Positions 8,566-49,559 of a stretch of 64,000 nt of DNA are shown here, in pieces. Source of the stretch: Rhodamnia argentea (Eukaryota; Streptophyta; Magnoliopsida; Myrtales; Myrtaceae). A program made the translations under genes and the position numbers. The stretch covers positions 35,139,826 to 35,203,825 of the forward strand of contig NC_063150.1 of assembly GCF_020921035.1 (NCBI RefSeq), in the 5' to 3' direction. The notes under the pieces are model-generated. The model was not told the DNA's origin. It ran no database searches and saw only the letters and a list, made by a program, of their open reading frames with translations. Numbering within the stretch: the first letter of the stretch is position 1; every line of letters begins with the position of its first letter.

Positions 8566-8850
8566 TCAGTTGGTTTGGCCTCCGCTGCCGGTGCTTATGG
8601 GTGGCCTCGTCGGCCGCCTTCGCCGGGGCGTCGCCCAACTCTCTTCTTCATAATACCCTTCTTCTCGTTCTTCTTCTCCTTCGTCCTGCATGCATTTATT
8701 CCGAGCAAAGAAAGATCTCGATGTACACCAAGATCGGCTTATGAAAATGATGCGACGGACCGTCCGTGCATCATGTATCAACTCCAAAGTCAACATGCAC
8801 GTAATTTAAACACAAACACAAGCACTTGTATACTGGAATTATATATATTT

Positions 8851-8883
<33 letters not shown>

Positions 8884-9117
8884 GAGAGAGAGAGAGTTGA
8901 GCTGAGCTGAGCTGAGCTGATGTAGTAGTACTAGTAGCGTCTCGCGGCACGGTGCTTGCGAACTGTGCCGATCCGGGGATCTCCCGGCAGTCGAGCCGGG
9001 GTCGAACTGGAAACCCAAGCACTTGAGGAGGGCAGTGATGCACGTTTGAAGGCAATGGCAAGGGCTGCACCGCTCCAGTCCTCCCCCTCTTCTTCCCTCT
9101 CCTTCTGAAGTCTCCAT
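8566..9117 (-). CDS. PROPEP: PROPEP: precursor of a plant elicitor peptide (Pep)
   Basis: Two-exon model: exon 1 9117-8932 (62 codons), intron 8931-8686 (GTACTA...ATGCAG, phase 0, containing a (CT)n tract), exon 2 8685-8566 (39 codons plus TGA), 101 aa in total. PROPEPs are small cytosolic precursors, about 90-110 aa in Arabidopsis; damage and metacaspase cleavage release a C-terminal peptide of about 23 aa that activates PEPR receptor kinases. Exon 1 has the family's N-terminal amphipathic motif, here CLQTCITALLKCLGF (compare CLDQTLRAILKCLGL in PROPEP1). Exon 2 is acidic, then basic (PRRRRPTR), and ends in STGSGGQTN directly before the stop, matching the Pep signature SSGRxGxxN at Ser, the two key Gly and the terminal Asn. 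Residues 79-101 would be the 23-mer. Arg and Pro of the signature are replaced by Ser and Gly. There is no signal peptide, as usual for the family. Homology is confident; the donor site is inferred. Confidence 0.82.
8853..8922. repeat. (GA)n tract followed by GAGCT pentamer repeat in PROPEP intron
   Basis: A GA run with one interruption is followed by four copies of TGAGC. On the PROPEP strand it reads as a CT-rich run, so it lies well upstream of the acceptor. It encodes the spurious Leu-Ser runs in overlapping ORFs. Confidence 0.85.
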
Positions 9118-9192
9118 GCCCTCTCTCTCTCTCTCTCTCTCTAAAACAGGTTGTAGGCTTTCTCGAACAGGTTGGGCCCTGGAAAACTATTC

Positions 9193-15030: not shown

Positions 15031-15139
15031 TTCCTCTCTCCTCACTCCAACTTCACCACTTTCTCTCTCTCTCTCTCTCTCTAGACCCGGCTTTAAACCT
15101 TAAAACTTTCCCCGAACGAGAGAGACTGAAGAACCAAGG

Positions 15140-17200
15140 ATGGCGGACGTGGGGATGATGACGATGAGCAAGGACGGTAGCAGCTGGTGGCTCCTCGCCC
15201 TCCCTTCCCCTGCCTTCTCCTCCTCCTCCGACCGCCTCCTTCACGATGCCTACGTCCTCCTTCCCTCCCTTCTCCTCGCCTTCCTCGCTCTCTCCCTCCT
15301 CACTTGGGCCCTCTCCCCCGGCGGCATCGCCTGGACCCACGGCAGGAACCGCATGGGCCCTCTCCCCATCCCCGGGCCCCGTGGCCTCCCCGTCTTCGGC
15401 AGCCTCCTCGCCCTCCGCAGCCTCCCCCACCGCGCCCTCGCCTCCGCCGCCGCCTCCCCGGACGGTGCCCAGCTCACGGCCTTCAGCCTCGGGTCGACCC
15501 CGGCCGTCGTCTCCTCCGACCCGCGGACCGCCCGTGAGATCCTCTCCTCCCCCGCCTTCGCCGACCGCCCGCTCAAGCGCTCCGCCCGCAGCCTCATGTT
15601 CGAGCGGGCCATCGGGTTCGCCCCCGCCGGCGCCTACTGGCGGCTCCTCCGCCGCGTCGCCGCGTCCCACCTCTTCGCCCCGCGCCGCGTCTCGGCACAC
15701 GGGCCGGCCCGCCTGCGCGACTGCGCCGCGATGGCGGTTCGCATCGCCGCCGAGCAGAAGGCCCGCGGCTTCGTGGTGCTCCGGGATCACCTTCAGCTGG
15801 CCTCGCTGAACAGCGTCATGGGGAGCGTGTTCGGGAAGCGATACGACGCCGCCCGCGACGCCGAAGAGCTCGAGGACCTGAGGTCGATGGTGAGGGAAGG
15901 GTTCGAGCTGCTGGGGGCGTTCAACTGGTCCGACTACGTGCCCTGGCTGCGCTACGTGTACGACCCGTTCCGCGTGGACGAGCGTTGCGCGAGGCTCGTC
16001 CCGAGAGTGAAACGTTTCGTCGGCGGCATCATCGCGGATCACCGGCAGAAGAATAACGACTGCGACGACGAGGTCGCCTCCGACGAGGCTGATTTTGTCG
16101 ATGTCTTGCTCTCTCTGGATGGCGACGAGAAGCTCGATGAAGATGACATGGTCGCCATCTTATGGGTACGTTGACCTACGATTCGTCACATCATTTAACG
16201 AATTCATTTAAATAATCGCGACATGCCCATGTCGATTTTTTATTAGCCCGGTCCTTTTCTTTGTGGGCCATTGTCGGATGAAATAATCGTATTTTTTTAA
16301 TGGTGACCAAACCTTGATCATCACAAGGAAAAGCCAAGAAACGGAGAGATTTGAAAAATAATCTTGGGATTAGTTACCTCTGCGGGCATTCGATTGTTTA
16401 TTTCCATTATTCCTTTTGTTTGGTTTCAAATTGAAGTGGTACAACGTAATTTGATCGTAACGTCCCGGATAGTAATAGCATCGTGTCGCTGTCGACTGCG
16501 CACGAGATGTGAAAGGTCAATTCATGGCCGCCGTTATTTCGTGTTAACGATCATTGAATTAGGTGAGAACTGTCCGTTTGCGCAGGAAATGATCTTCAGA
16601 GGCACGGACACGACGGCTCTGTTAACCGAGTGGATCATGGCCGAGCTGGTGTTGCACCCGCGAGTCCAAGAGGCGCTCCGGGAAGAGCTCGCCGACGCCG
16701 CCTCCCGCGCCGGCGGGAGAGTCCTGACCGACGCCGACATGGCCGGGCTGCCCTACCTGCAGGCCGTGGTCAAGGAAGGCCTGCGGATGCACCCTCCGGG
16801 CCCGCTCCTCTCGTGGGCACGGCTCTCCACGGCGGACGTCCAGCTCGGCAACGGGATGGTGGTCCCCGCCGGCACGACGGCCATGGTCAACATGTGGGCC
16901 ATCGCGCGCGACCCTGGGGTCTGGGAGGACCCGCACTCGTTCCGGCCCGAGCGGTTCCTGGAGCACGACGTCGATGTGCGCGGGGGCGACCTGAGGCTCG
17001 CCCCGTTCGGGTCCGGACGCCGGGTCTGCCCTGGGAAGAATCTCGGCCTGGCAACGGTGACCATGTGGGTGGCCGAACTGGTGCGCCGCTTCAAGTGGGC
17101 GGAGAACGCGGGTCGCCCAGTCGACCTGAGCGAGGTCTTGAAGCTGTCCTGCGAGATGAAGCATCCCTTGCACGCGGTGGCCGTGGAGAGAAATCGATAA
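15140..17200 (+). CDS. Cytochrome P450, CYP78A subfamily
   Basis: Exon 1 15140-16165, intron 16166-16585 (GTACGT...GCGCAG), exon 2 16586-17200; 546 aa. An N-terminal membrane anchor (about residues 35-60) is followed by the Pro-rich hinge [16 protein letters not shown], the I-helix FRGTDTT (348-352 for GTDTT), the K-helix ExxR (EGLR, 406-409) and the haem loop [10 protein letters not shown] with Cys490. [28 protein letters not shown] and the single intron after a Trp codon before EMIFRGTDT are CYP78A hallmarks. CYP78A enzymes (KLUH and relatives) are ER monooxygenases that make a still unidentified mobile growth signal controlling organ and seed size. Both exons are extremely GC-rich, with G or C at nearly every third position, unlike the other genes here. 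Its neighbour PROPEP suggests it is the CYP78A7-type member. Confidence 0.92.
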
Positions 17201-47623: not shown

Positions 47624-49147
47624 TTAAAGCCTTCGCCTAGTGAGCTTCGCCCTCAATCCATGTTTCATGTGAAGTATGATGGAATTAGAAGGTCTCACAG
47701 GGTGACCTTCCACAACATGAACTTCGTAGTTAATTATTACAGCGGCTGTGACCGTTTTCATCTGCGTGAAAGCCATTTCTTTTCCCAGACAAGTTCTCGG
47801 TCCGGCATTAAATGCCAAGAACTTGTACGACGGCTCGTGCCTAATTCCTCCTCTCTCCGAAATCCACCTCTCCGGTCTAAATTCCAAGCAATCCTCTCCC
47901 CATACTGACTTCATCCTCCCCATTGAATACAGATGGAAGAGTATTTTCGTGCCGGGATCGACTGTGTGTCCACTGGGAAGTACGTCAGCCTTTACAGGGC
48001 ACTTGTGTTGGAATGGAACCGGTGGGTACAGCCTCAAAGATTCGCACAGCGCACCATGTAAATAAACCATCTTGTCCATATGCTCACCAATCTTGAACAC
48101 ACTAAGATTTTCTTCTTCCTTCGGGATTACAGATCTGATCTCCTCTACGATTCTCATTTCAACAGACGGGTTCATGGAAAGAGCCCAAAAAAACCACGTG
48201 AGAGCTGAACTAGTGGTATCTTTTCCGGCGACCATGAAATTCAAAATCGTGTCCCTAAGGAACTTGTCATTGCACTCTAAAGCACCCAATGTCTCATTTT
48301 CCACCATATAAGATGTCAATAAATCTGCACCATTTTCATCTCCCTTCGCTTCTCTGGTTCCTTCTCTCAGTTCAACTCTCTTCAGCACTATGTAATTCCC
48401 TACAATTTGGTCCATATCTTCCCAAGCTCGTCTCAGTTTCTCCTCCACTCCAATCCCCAACAACCTCTGCAGAGTCCCGAACCACTCGGGGTACAAATGG
48501 CGATAGAAAATCACCTCCTCGGCATCATCCAATGCCTTGGAAAACGGGACTTCGGGGAATTCGACGGATAAGCTGCCGGGGTCGAACCCAGTGACGAATT
48601 TGCAAGCAGAATCAAAGGTGAACCTCTGGAACAAATCCTGCAAATCCACCGTAACACCTCTCCGAGACAATTCGTCGAACACCTTGAGCAGGCCATTCTC
48701 CACCTTGTCACTGGTCGTCGTCGCCAGGAACCGATGGAACCGTTGGTCGTTCATTAACGCCTGAGCGACCCTTCTCTGCATCCTCCACCGATCGGAGTCG
48801 GAGTTGAAGATCCCGTCACCCAAAACGTCGAACACCCTCTTGAACTCGGGCCCTTTCGGGAAGTTCCCAAAGTTGGTGCTCATGATGTAGTGGACGTTGG
48901 CGGGATCGGCGGTGAACAGCATGTCCATGCCGGAAAACCAGAGTAACCGCAAGAGGAAGTTGCAGCGGCTCCGCTCAAGAATGCCTGTGGCCCAGTCGTG
49001 GACGCGGCTCAGGTTGAGGAGGAGCTCCGGTAGCATCCCCACGAGCGGCCAATTCCTGGGGAGCCCATCACCTCTTTTGCCGAGGAGGCGAAGGACCGCG
49101 AAGCAAATTCCGGCCAAGAATATCTCCAAGAAACCTATCAATGCCAT
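47624..49147 (-). CDS. Cytochrome P450 CYP96A, alkane hydroxylase-like
   Basis: Intronless 507-aa ORF, tail-to-tail with the PDCD2-like gene (512 bp between stops). An N-terminal anchor is followed by NWPLVGMLPELL, DMLFTADPANVHYI, NFGNFPKGPEFKRVFDVLG, the I-helix AGKDTTSS, ESLRLYPPVPF (K-helix ExxR), YSMGRMKSVWGED and the haem loop FNAGPRTCLG with Cys453. These match CYP96A, the family of MAH1 (CYP96A15), which hydroxylates alkanes to secondary alcohols and ketones in stem wax at the ER; other members act in suberin or fatty acid hydroxylation. Lack of introns is usual for the CYP86 clan A-type group. All key residues are present. The substrate cannot be told from sequence. Confidence 0.93.
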   Translation of the reverse strand: MALIGFLEIFLAGICFAVLRLLGKRGDGLPRNWPLVGMLPELLLNLSRVHDWATGILERSRCNFLLRLLWFSGMDMLFTADPANVHYIMSTNFGNFPKGPEFKRVFDVLGDGIFNSDSDRWRMQRRVAQALMNDQRFHRFLATTTSDKVENGLLKVFDELSRRGVTVDLQDLFQRFTFDSACKFVTGFDPGSLSVEFPEVPFSKALDDAEEVIFYRHLYPEWFGTLQRLLGIGVEEKLRRAWEDMDQIVGNYIVLKRVELREGTREAKGDENGADLLTSYMVENETLGALECNDKFLRDTILNFMVAGKDTTSSALTWFFWALSMNPSVEMRIVEEIRSVIPKEEENLSVFKIGEHMDKMVYLHGALCESLRLYPPVPFQHKCPVKADVLPSGHTVDPGTKILFHLYSMGRMKSVWGEDCLEFRPERWISERGGIRHEPSYKFLAFNAGPRTCLGKEMAFTQMKTVTAAVIINYEVHVVEGHPVRPSNSIILHMKHGLRAKLTRRRL

Positions 49148-49559
49148 TGAAGCTTCTCACTCACTCTCTCTCTGTCTCTCTGTGGTTATGTAGAGAGAGA
49201 ATTGGTGACATGACACTGACAGGGGACGACGTCGACGAGTAGTTGGCGGGATTTATCATCGCATTGAGGCTGAGACCAACTGCCATAGAAACGCAAGGAT
49301 GATAAGATTGGTGGTGGACCATGGCCATCACCTCCTATAATTTCATCTTACCGTGCAATTTGATTCATGAATTTCTCATTTGTTATATGTGATTCCTGAA
49401 TTTTGATACACGTTCAACTTAGTCCATAGACTAATAAATACGTTCAATATTGCAAGCTTATGAATCACATTGCACATGGAGTTAAAGTTTAAGAATCATT
49501 CGTGTCGTTTTCTTATGTTTTTACTCATATCCACTTATAAATTAACACCGTATCCTGTG
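49148..49559. other. CYP96A upstream region
   Basis: CT-rich leader (49157-49187) on the CYP96A side, then AT-rich DNA. 49370-49500 contains TTCATGAATTTCTCATTTGTTATATGTG-like and inverted units also seen at 21405-21740, so a decayed repeat may occupy the distal promoter. Confidence 0.4.

Follow-up and report, generated by a model that had tools for sequence, protein, structure and literature searches.

A predicted two-exon PROPEP gene with a C-terminal Pep in Rhodamnia argentea

Introduction

PROPEP genes are short, evolve fast and are easily missed by gene finders. In those parts of the published work that are cited here, the family is described as having cytosolic precursors that are cut by metacaspases on wounding (PMC12629630), and the Pep is reported to bind PEPR, which is then joined by BAK1 (PMC6749341). 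Peps are reported to share little sequence across plant families and to carry family-specific motifs; the divergence of these motifs at the family level, the co-evolution of the receptor and the family-limited perception of Peps have all been published, and SxGxxxxxN has been given as the rule for all eight AtPeps (PMC4526913). In the Rosaceae PROPEPs described, the Pep and the N-terminal portion lie on two exons, and the Ser at position 15, which is critical in AtPep1, is rarely replaced and then by a similar hydroxylic residue (PMC5782389). The Pep2 of Amygdaleae, represented in peach by PpPep2, has the sequence YVQRITLRAARPEISTGSGAQTN and ends in STGSGAQTN (PMC5782389); PpPep2 has also been synthesised and used (PMC8132438).

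The DNA analysed here, called the window, is a stretch of 64 kb (C1:35139826-35203825) from the 346.66-Mb assembly of R. argentea, which consists of 74 contigs. A preliminary description of the window had claimed an unrecognised, divergent PROPEP gene at positions 8566-9117. Based on the results of this study, the gene is real and was correctly identified, and its novelty was overstated.

Results

Gene model

Translation of 9117-8932 and 8685-8566 placed both open frames, the intron (GT...AG) and the product of 101 aa where they had been claimed. The features of the predicted gene, in window coordinates, are as follows.

8932..9117, minus strand: predicted PROPEP exon 1, with 62 codons for the N-terminal portion of the precursor; matches PF17232 by itself
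9013..9054, minus strand: conserved segment C-L-Q-T-C-I-T-A-L-L-K-C-L-G, residues 22-35, in the exon 1 sequence
8686..8931, minus strand: predicted phase-0 intron of 246 nt with GT...AG ends; its 5' part contains a tract of CT repeats
8566..8685, minus strand: predicted PROPEP exon 2, 39 codons and stop; raises the PF17232 score when joined
8569..8637, minus strand: predicted 23-residue Pep, WATPRRRRPTRPPISTGSGGQTN, its length set by analogy with AtPep1
9121..9142, minus strand: GA microsatellite, 3 bases upstream of the start codon

Exon 1 translates as METSEGEGRRGGGLERCSPCHCLQTCITALLKCLGFQFDPGSTAGRSPDRHSSQAPCRETLL and exon 2 as DEGEEEREEGYYEEESWATPRRRRPTRPPISTGSGGQTN, followed by a stop. The conserved segment of exon 1 continues with F, so that both the CLQTCITALLKCLGF and the STGSGGQTN-stop of the preliminary description are present in the sequence. 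Residues M1, E5, P19, C20, A29, L31, C33, L34 and G35 do not vary among the three copies of exon 1 in this genome. The intron begins with GTACTACTAC and ends with ATGCATGCAG. As had been claimed, the exons can be joined in phase 0 to give 101 aa; however, the donor CTA/GTACTA (the slash marks the junction) is weak, the acceptor being TGCATGCAG/GA, and many alternative in-frame joins are possible at this locus. For these two reasons, the exact junction is the least certain part of the gene model.

The N-terminus of the precursor, METSEGEGRRGGG, contains no hydrophobic stretch by inspection, and the precursor appears on the same inspection to be made without a signal peptide; it is probably disordered. 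W-boxes were not enriched in the 1.5 kb upstream (4 found, a number held by 16% of random window stretches), and an Rfam scan at the gathering threshold and a tRNA scan of the 64-kb window were both empty.

Other features of the window and genome

A cytochrome P450 frame of 510 codons runs without interruption through 47627-49156 on the minus strand (PF00067, 205.4 bits); among the best 84 of 337 candidates scored, the highest-scoring copy elsewhere in the genome shows only 42% identity to it. A second P450 occurs in two pieces on the plus strand (15104-16171 and 16355-17197, PF00067 profile positions 2-266 and 269-440), and the window also holds a MADS-box DNA-binding domain (PF00319; 29180-29488, plus) and a reverse-transcriptase fragment (PF00078; 38441-39211, minus), which we take to come probably from a non-LTR retrotransposon. 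Terpene synthases are abundant in the genome, with 126 exon-level PF01397 matches and clusters at, e.g., C3:30.83-30.94 Mb, C9:16.4-17.0 Mb and C10:18.3-18.8 Mb. Many of the C10 matches span one in-frame TAG, where perhaps only a short intron is read through.

Profile evidence

The joined 101-aa product matched the Pfam profile for PROPEPs, PF17232 (Pep1_7; 82 positions, curated cut-off 26.2 bits), with 37.8 bits (E=2.7e-9). The alignment to the profile covered its positions 2-82 and residues 5-97 of the protein, the last four residues lying beyond the match. Exon 1 alone reached 33.7 bits (E=5.3e-8, profile 2-43) and thus passed the cut-off, the intron-retained frame reached 32.4 bits, and exon 2 alone matched no Pfam family. 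Adding exon 2 to exon 1 brought 4.1 bits and carried the match to profile position 82, which modestly supports the predicted exon join. None of the seven controls (six shuffles and one reversal of the 101-aa protein) matched any family. A PDB sequence search with the precursor returned no match, nor did one with AtPep1, so that this search was uninformative. The SxGxxxxxN signature stands at the very C-terminus (STGSGGQTN-stop), with S15, G17 and N23 in register, and the layout of an N-terminal part and a Pep on separate exons recurs in the anatomy of the window gene, with the splice predicted from sequence.

Related loci in the genome

A genome search with the 101-aa protein (E up to 0.001) found only the window's own two exons. 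A scan with PF17232 (E up to 1) gave four places from five candidates scored, with the window ranked first.

C1, window exon 1: 31.6 bits, the only place over the cut-off
C11:2583014: 24.0 bits, under the cut-off
C2:33030780: 21.6 bits, under the cut-off
C3:24318670: 21.3 bits, under the cut-off

The profile had no match in 14 control genomes, which says little about plants. The C3 place (profile 22-64) was rejected: its forward frames are a serine-rich stretch of a long frame, with no PROPEP-like exon 1. A Pep-like end was absent there in all six frames, as judged by a pattern (S/G/T/A at position 15, or two spaced Gly) that also missed the C2 end.

The C2 copy (C2:33030908-33029893, minus strand) has two exons. 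Its exon 1 starts with MEESGGTPPFTWLNPCVLVQEAVKAMLSCLGL and has the sequence MEESGG...NPCVLVQEAVKAMLSCLGL, and some 0.7 kb further downstream, in the same orientation, is a frame ending in EDNPATFVESAVTKPPINTGTGPQTN-stop. A phase-0 join from ATG/GTCTCT to CGCAG/GAG is possible and would give 114 aa, with exon 2 then opening with acidic residues; this junction was picked from several, and other in-frame joins exist there. The 114-aa product scored 18.4 bits and its exon 1 alone 18.6 bits against PF17232. A score below 26.2 bits counts, on its own, against PROPEP identity, and it is the Pep end that decides: it reads TKPPINTGTGPQTN in the C2 copy and TRPPISTGSGGQTN in the window. When the window's last 14 residues were compared with 5532 C-terminal 14-mers from the window and 12 loci, the C2 end scored 58 and the next best 18. 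The alignment score between the C2 and window exon 1s was reached by none of 500 shuffles, and a genome search with the C2 protein (E up to 1) found only its own two exons. The C2 copy shares with the window gene the two exons, the possible phase-0 join and 9 of the last 12 residues, and is unlike it in having Asn at position 15 (Ser in the window Pep), Pro at 20 and no Arg cluster. In both genes a GA repeat directly precedes the ATG, and the intron carries a CT tract in its 5' portion; since repeats of this kind are common, this is weak evidence of kinship. From its sequence, we regard the C2 place as a second predicted PROPEP. Since its peptide has one basic residue in the last 23, it would need another cut.

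The idea of a chromosome block duplicated between the window and C2 received no support from the single gene used to test it, the neighbouring P450 at 47627-49156, as none of 13 matches at E up to 1e-60 fell on C2 (among the best 84 of 337 candidates scored).

The degenerate DNA pattern TG-x-G-x-Q-x-N-stop had six matches genome-wide, against 22 for a reversed control pattern, and as such is not enriched in the genome. Two of the six are the Pep ends of the window gene and the C2 copy, both about 0.3-0.7 kb downstream of a PF17232-like exon 1 on the same strand. These data bear on whether two unrelated open frames could have been assembled by chance into something resembling a PROPEP. The missing profile match of exon 2 alone, and the fact that the exons were joined by eye where many joins are possible, would fit such an assembly, but exon 1 passes the curated cut-off unaided, C2 repeats the pairing of exon 1 with exon 2 (58 against 18 among the 14-mers), and a third of the genome-wide pattern matches sit just downstream of such exon 1s. 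We therefore consider a chance assembly extremely improbable, and the second locus has in practice already refuted it. With the PF17232 match, the negative controls and a second copy with a like ending, the claim that this is a two-exon PROPEP gene encoding a C-terminal Pep was upheld, and the identity of the window locus as a PROPEP gene is strongly supported at the sequence level.

On C11, a PROPEP-like exon 1 (C11:2583014-2583142; MMEGENSSHSYMDHHPCSLVRLARIAFLKCLGLDF...) scored 26.1 bits against the cut-off of 26.2, and when it was aligned with exon 1 of the window gene, 0 of 500 shuffles reached the score obtained. Neither C-terminal patterns nor scores revealed an exon 2 in the 9.5 kb examined, about 8.9 kb of it downstream. 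This copy may be a remnant; alternatively, it may have an exon 2 that has diverged too far, or lies too far away, to be recognised.

Comparison with known Peps

The predicted window Pep carries RRRR at Pep positions 5-8, as the preliminary description had noted for the 23-residue C-terminus. Its end differs by one residue from that of PpPep2 (STGSGAQTN). Between PpPep2/AmyPep2a and the window Pep, the C-termini (PEISTGSGAQTN and PPISTGSGGQTN, respectively) are identical at 10 of 12 residues, Ser-Gly included, and the whole Peps at 12 of 23; the comparison covers the Pep. In both, the Pep and the N-terminal part are on two exons. The window Pep is unlike PpPep2 in its RRRR cluster and in having Pro13 for the Glu13 and Gly20 for the Ala20 of peach. 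With PpPep1 (..RQPITTGGGGQIN), 8 of the last 12 residues are identical, and with AtPep1 5 of 12, the Arg18-Pro19 of AtPep1 being Ser-Gly in the window Pep. Residues S15, G17, G20 and N23 of the window Pep are kept in register with AtPep1.

The strings SGGQTN, GSGGQTN and STGSGGQTN were not found in the literature searched, which took in few subscription papers, and TGSGGQ was not found among the matches listed. Matches for PROPEP with Myrtaceae were unrelated by title, and those with Eucalyptus yielded a review only.

The replacement of Arg-Pro by Ser-Gly had been taken as the mark of an unusual and perhaps undescribed Pep. This could not be maintained, for PpPep2 of peach has the same Ser-Gly and shares 10 of the last 12 residues, and the window Pep is a good but ordinary further member of the PROPEP family. 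The related proposal of an undescribed recognition class, in which the Pep would be perceived only within its own order through Ser18-Gly19, is compatible with the window gene being an ordinary PROPEP, and family-limited perception is reported (PMC4526913). The ligand also differs from AtPep1, with 5 of the last 12 residues identical. Nevertheless, the Rosaceae Pep2, reported to act in peach, has the same Ser-Gly (PMC5782389, PMC8132438), so that these two residues alone do not mark one new order, and we hold this proposal to be quite unlikely.

It could also be supposed that the window gene was recently silenced, its frames surviving while expression or splicing was lost and no Pep being made. 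The weak donor would agree with this, and the C11 copy, in which no exon 2 could be recognised over 8.9 kb downstream of exon 1, hints that PROPEP copies may be decaying here. However, the frames of both exons are intact, S15, G17, G20 and N23 are retained in the Pep end, and its last 12 residues agree with PpPep2 at 10 positions, unlike the outcome of free decay. A silenced gene is thus very unlikely in our estimation.

PEPR receptor

The AtPEPR1 ectodomain used as query is identical to 5gr8_A. At least nine matches were obtained at E up to 1e-80 (best 64 of 1824 candidates scored), among them one clear PEPR orthologue at C2:24514379-24516439, which scored 757.9 bits with 55% identity to the AtPEPR1 ectodomain. 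The LRR receptor kinase ranked second reached 402.7 bits. The frame of the orthologue continues into the kinase domain over two frames, as with an intron. An Arg of LRR18 in PEPR1 is reported to hold the peptide C-terminus (PMC6749341). The LRR stretch concerned reads RRFILREN in AtPEPR1 and RRLILREN in the PEPR of this genome. The residue in question is presumably Arg487. The preliminary description had suggested a search of PEPR orthologues for ligand-contact changes matching the Pep; within the Arg stretch near the peptide C-terminus, to which the check was confined, RRxILREN is retained.

Discussion

The gene anatomy, the membership in the profile family, the second copy with a like Pep end and the PEPR orthologue with its Arg stretch kept are established. 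We consider it very probable that the window locus is a PROPEP gene whose small precursor ends in a Pep phytocytokine. Splicing, processing, release, binding and activity of this Pep would then follow by analogy with described members of the family. The precursor would be made in the cytosol, and wounding or infection would activate type II metacaspases; as these enzymes cleave after basic residues, the RRRR cluster is the likeliest region. The released C-terminal peptide, of about 15-23 residues and ending in STGSGGQTN, would reach the apoplast and bind the ectodomain of this genome's PEPR, with its last residue, Asn, placed at the conserved RRxILREN Arg stretch, and the PEPR-bound Pep would recruit BAK1/SERK and lead to pattern-triggered immunity.

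The RRRR cluster at Pep positions 5-8 could plausibly contain the metacaspase site, as a cluster of four basic residues in Propep3 is reported likely to hold the AtMC9 cut (PMC12629630). A cut right after RRRR would leave the 15-residue PTRPPISTGSGGQTN, and the 15-residue core AtPep1(9-23) is reported to suffice for activity (PMC4526913). The Pro that follows RRRR may make the earlier Arg bonds better cut sites.

The least ordinary points are the C2 partner, in which Asn takes the place of the critical Ser15, and the orphan exon 1 on C11. They could belong to a small set of Peps diverging in function, with Ser15 and a multi-Arg cut region in the window Pep as against Asn15, Pro20 and no Arg cluster in the C2 Pep. 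In that case, separate proteases might process the two Peps, or their strength of binding to the single PEPR might differ, one acting as agonist and the other as weak or competing ligand, and the C11 copy might make the precursor N-terminus without a Pep. As a whole, this scenario is tentative and in our view unlikely.

The understanding of the PROPEP family is unchanged by the window gene; of the 23 positions of its Pep, 11 are unlike those of the main Prunus Pep2, with the core kept. The analysis provides, in one genome, a concrete candidate sequence for an elicitor together with the matching receptor.
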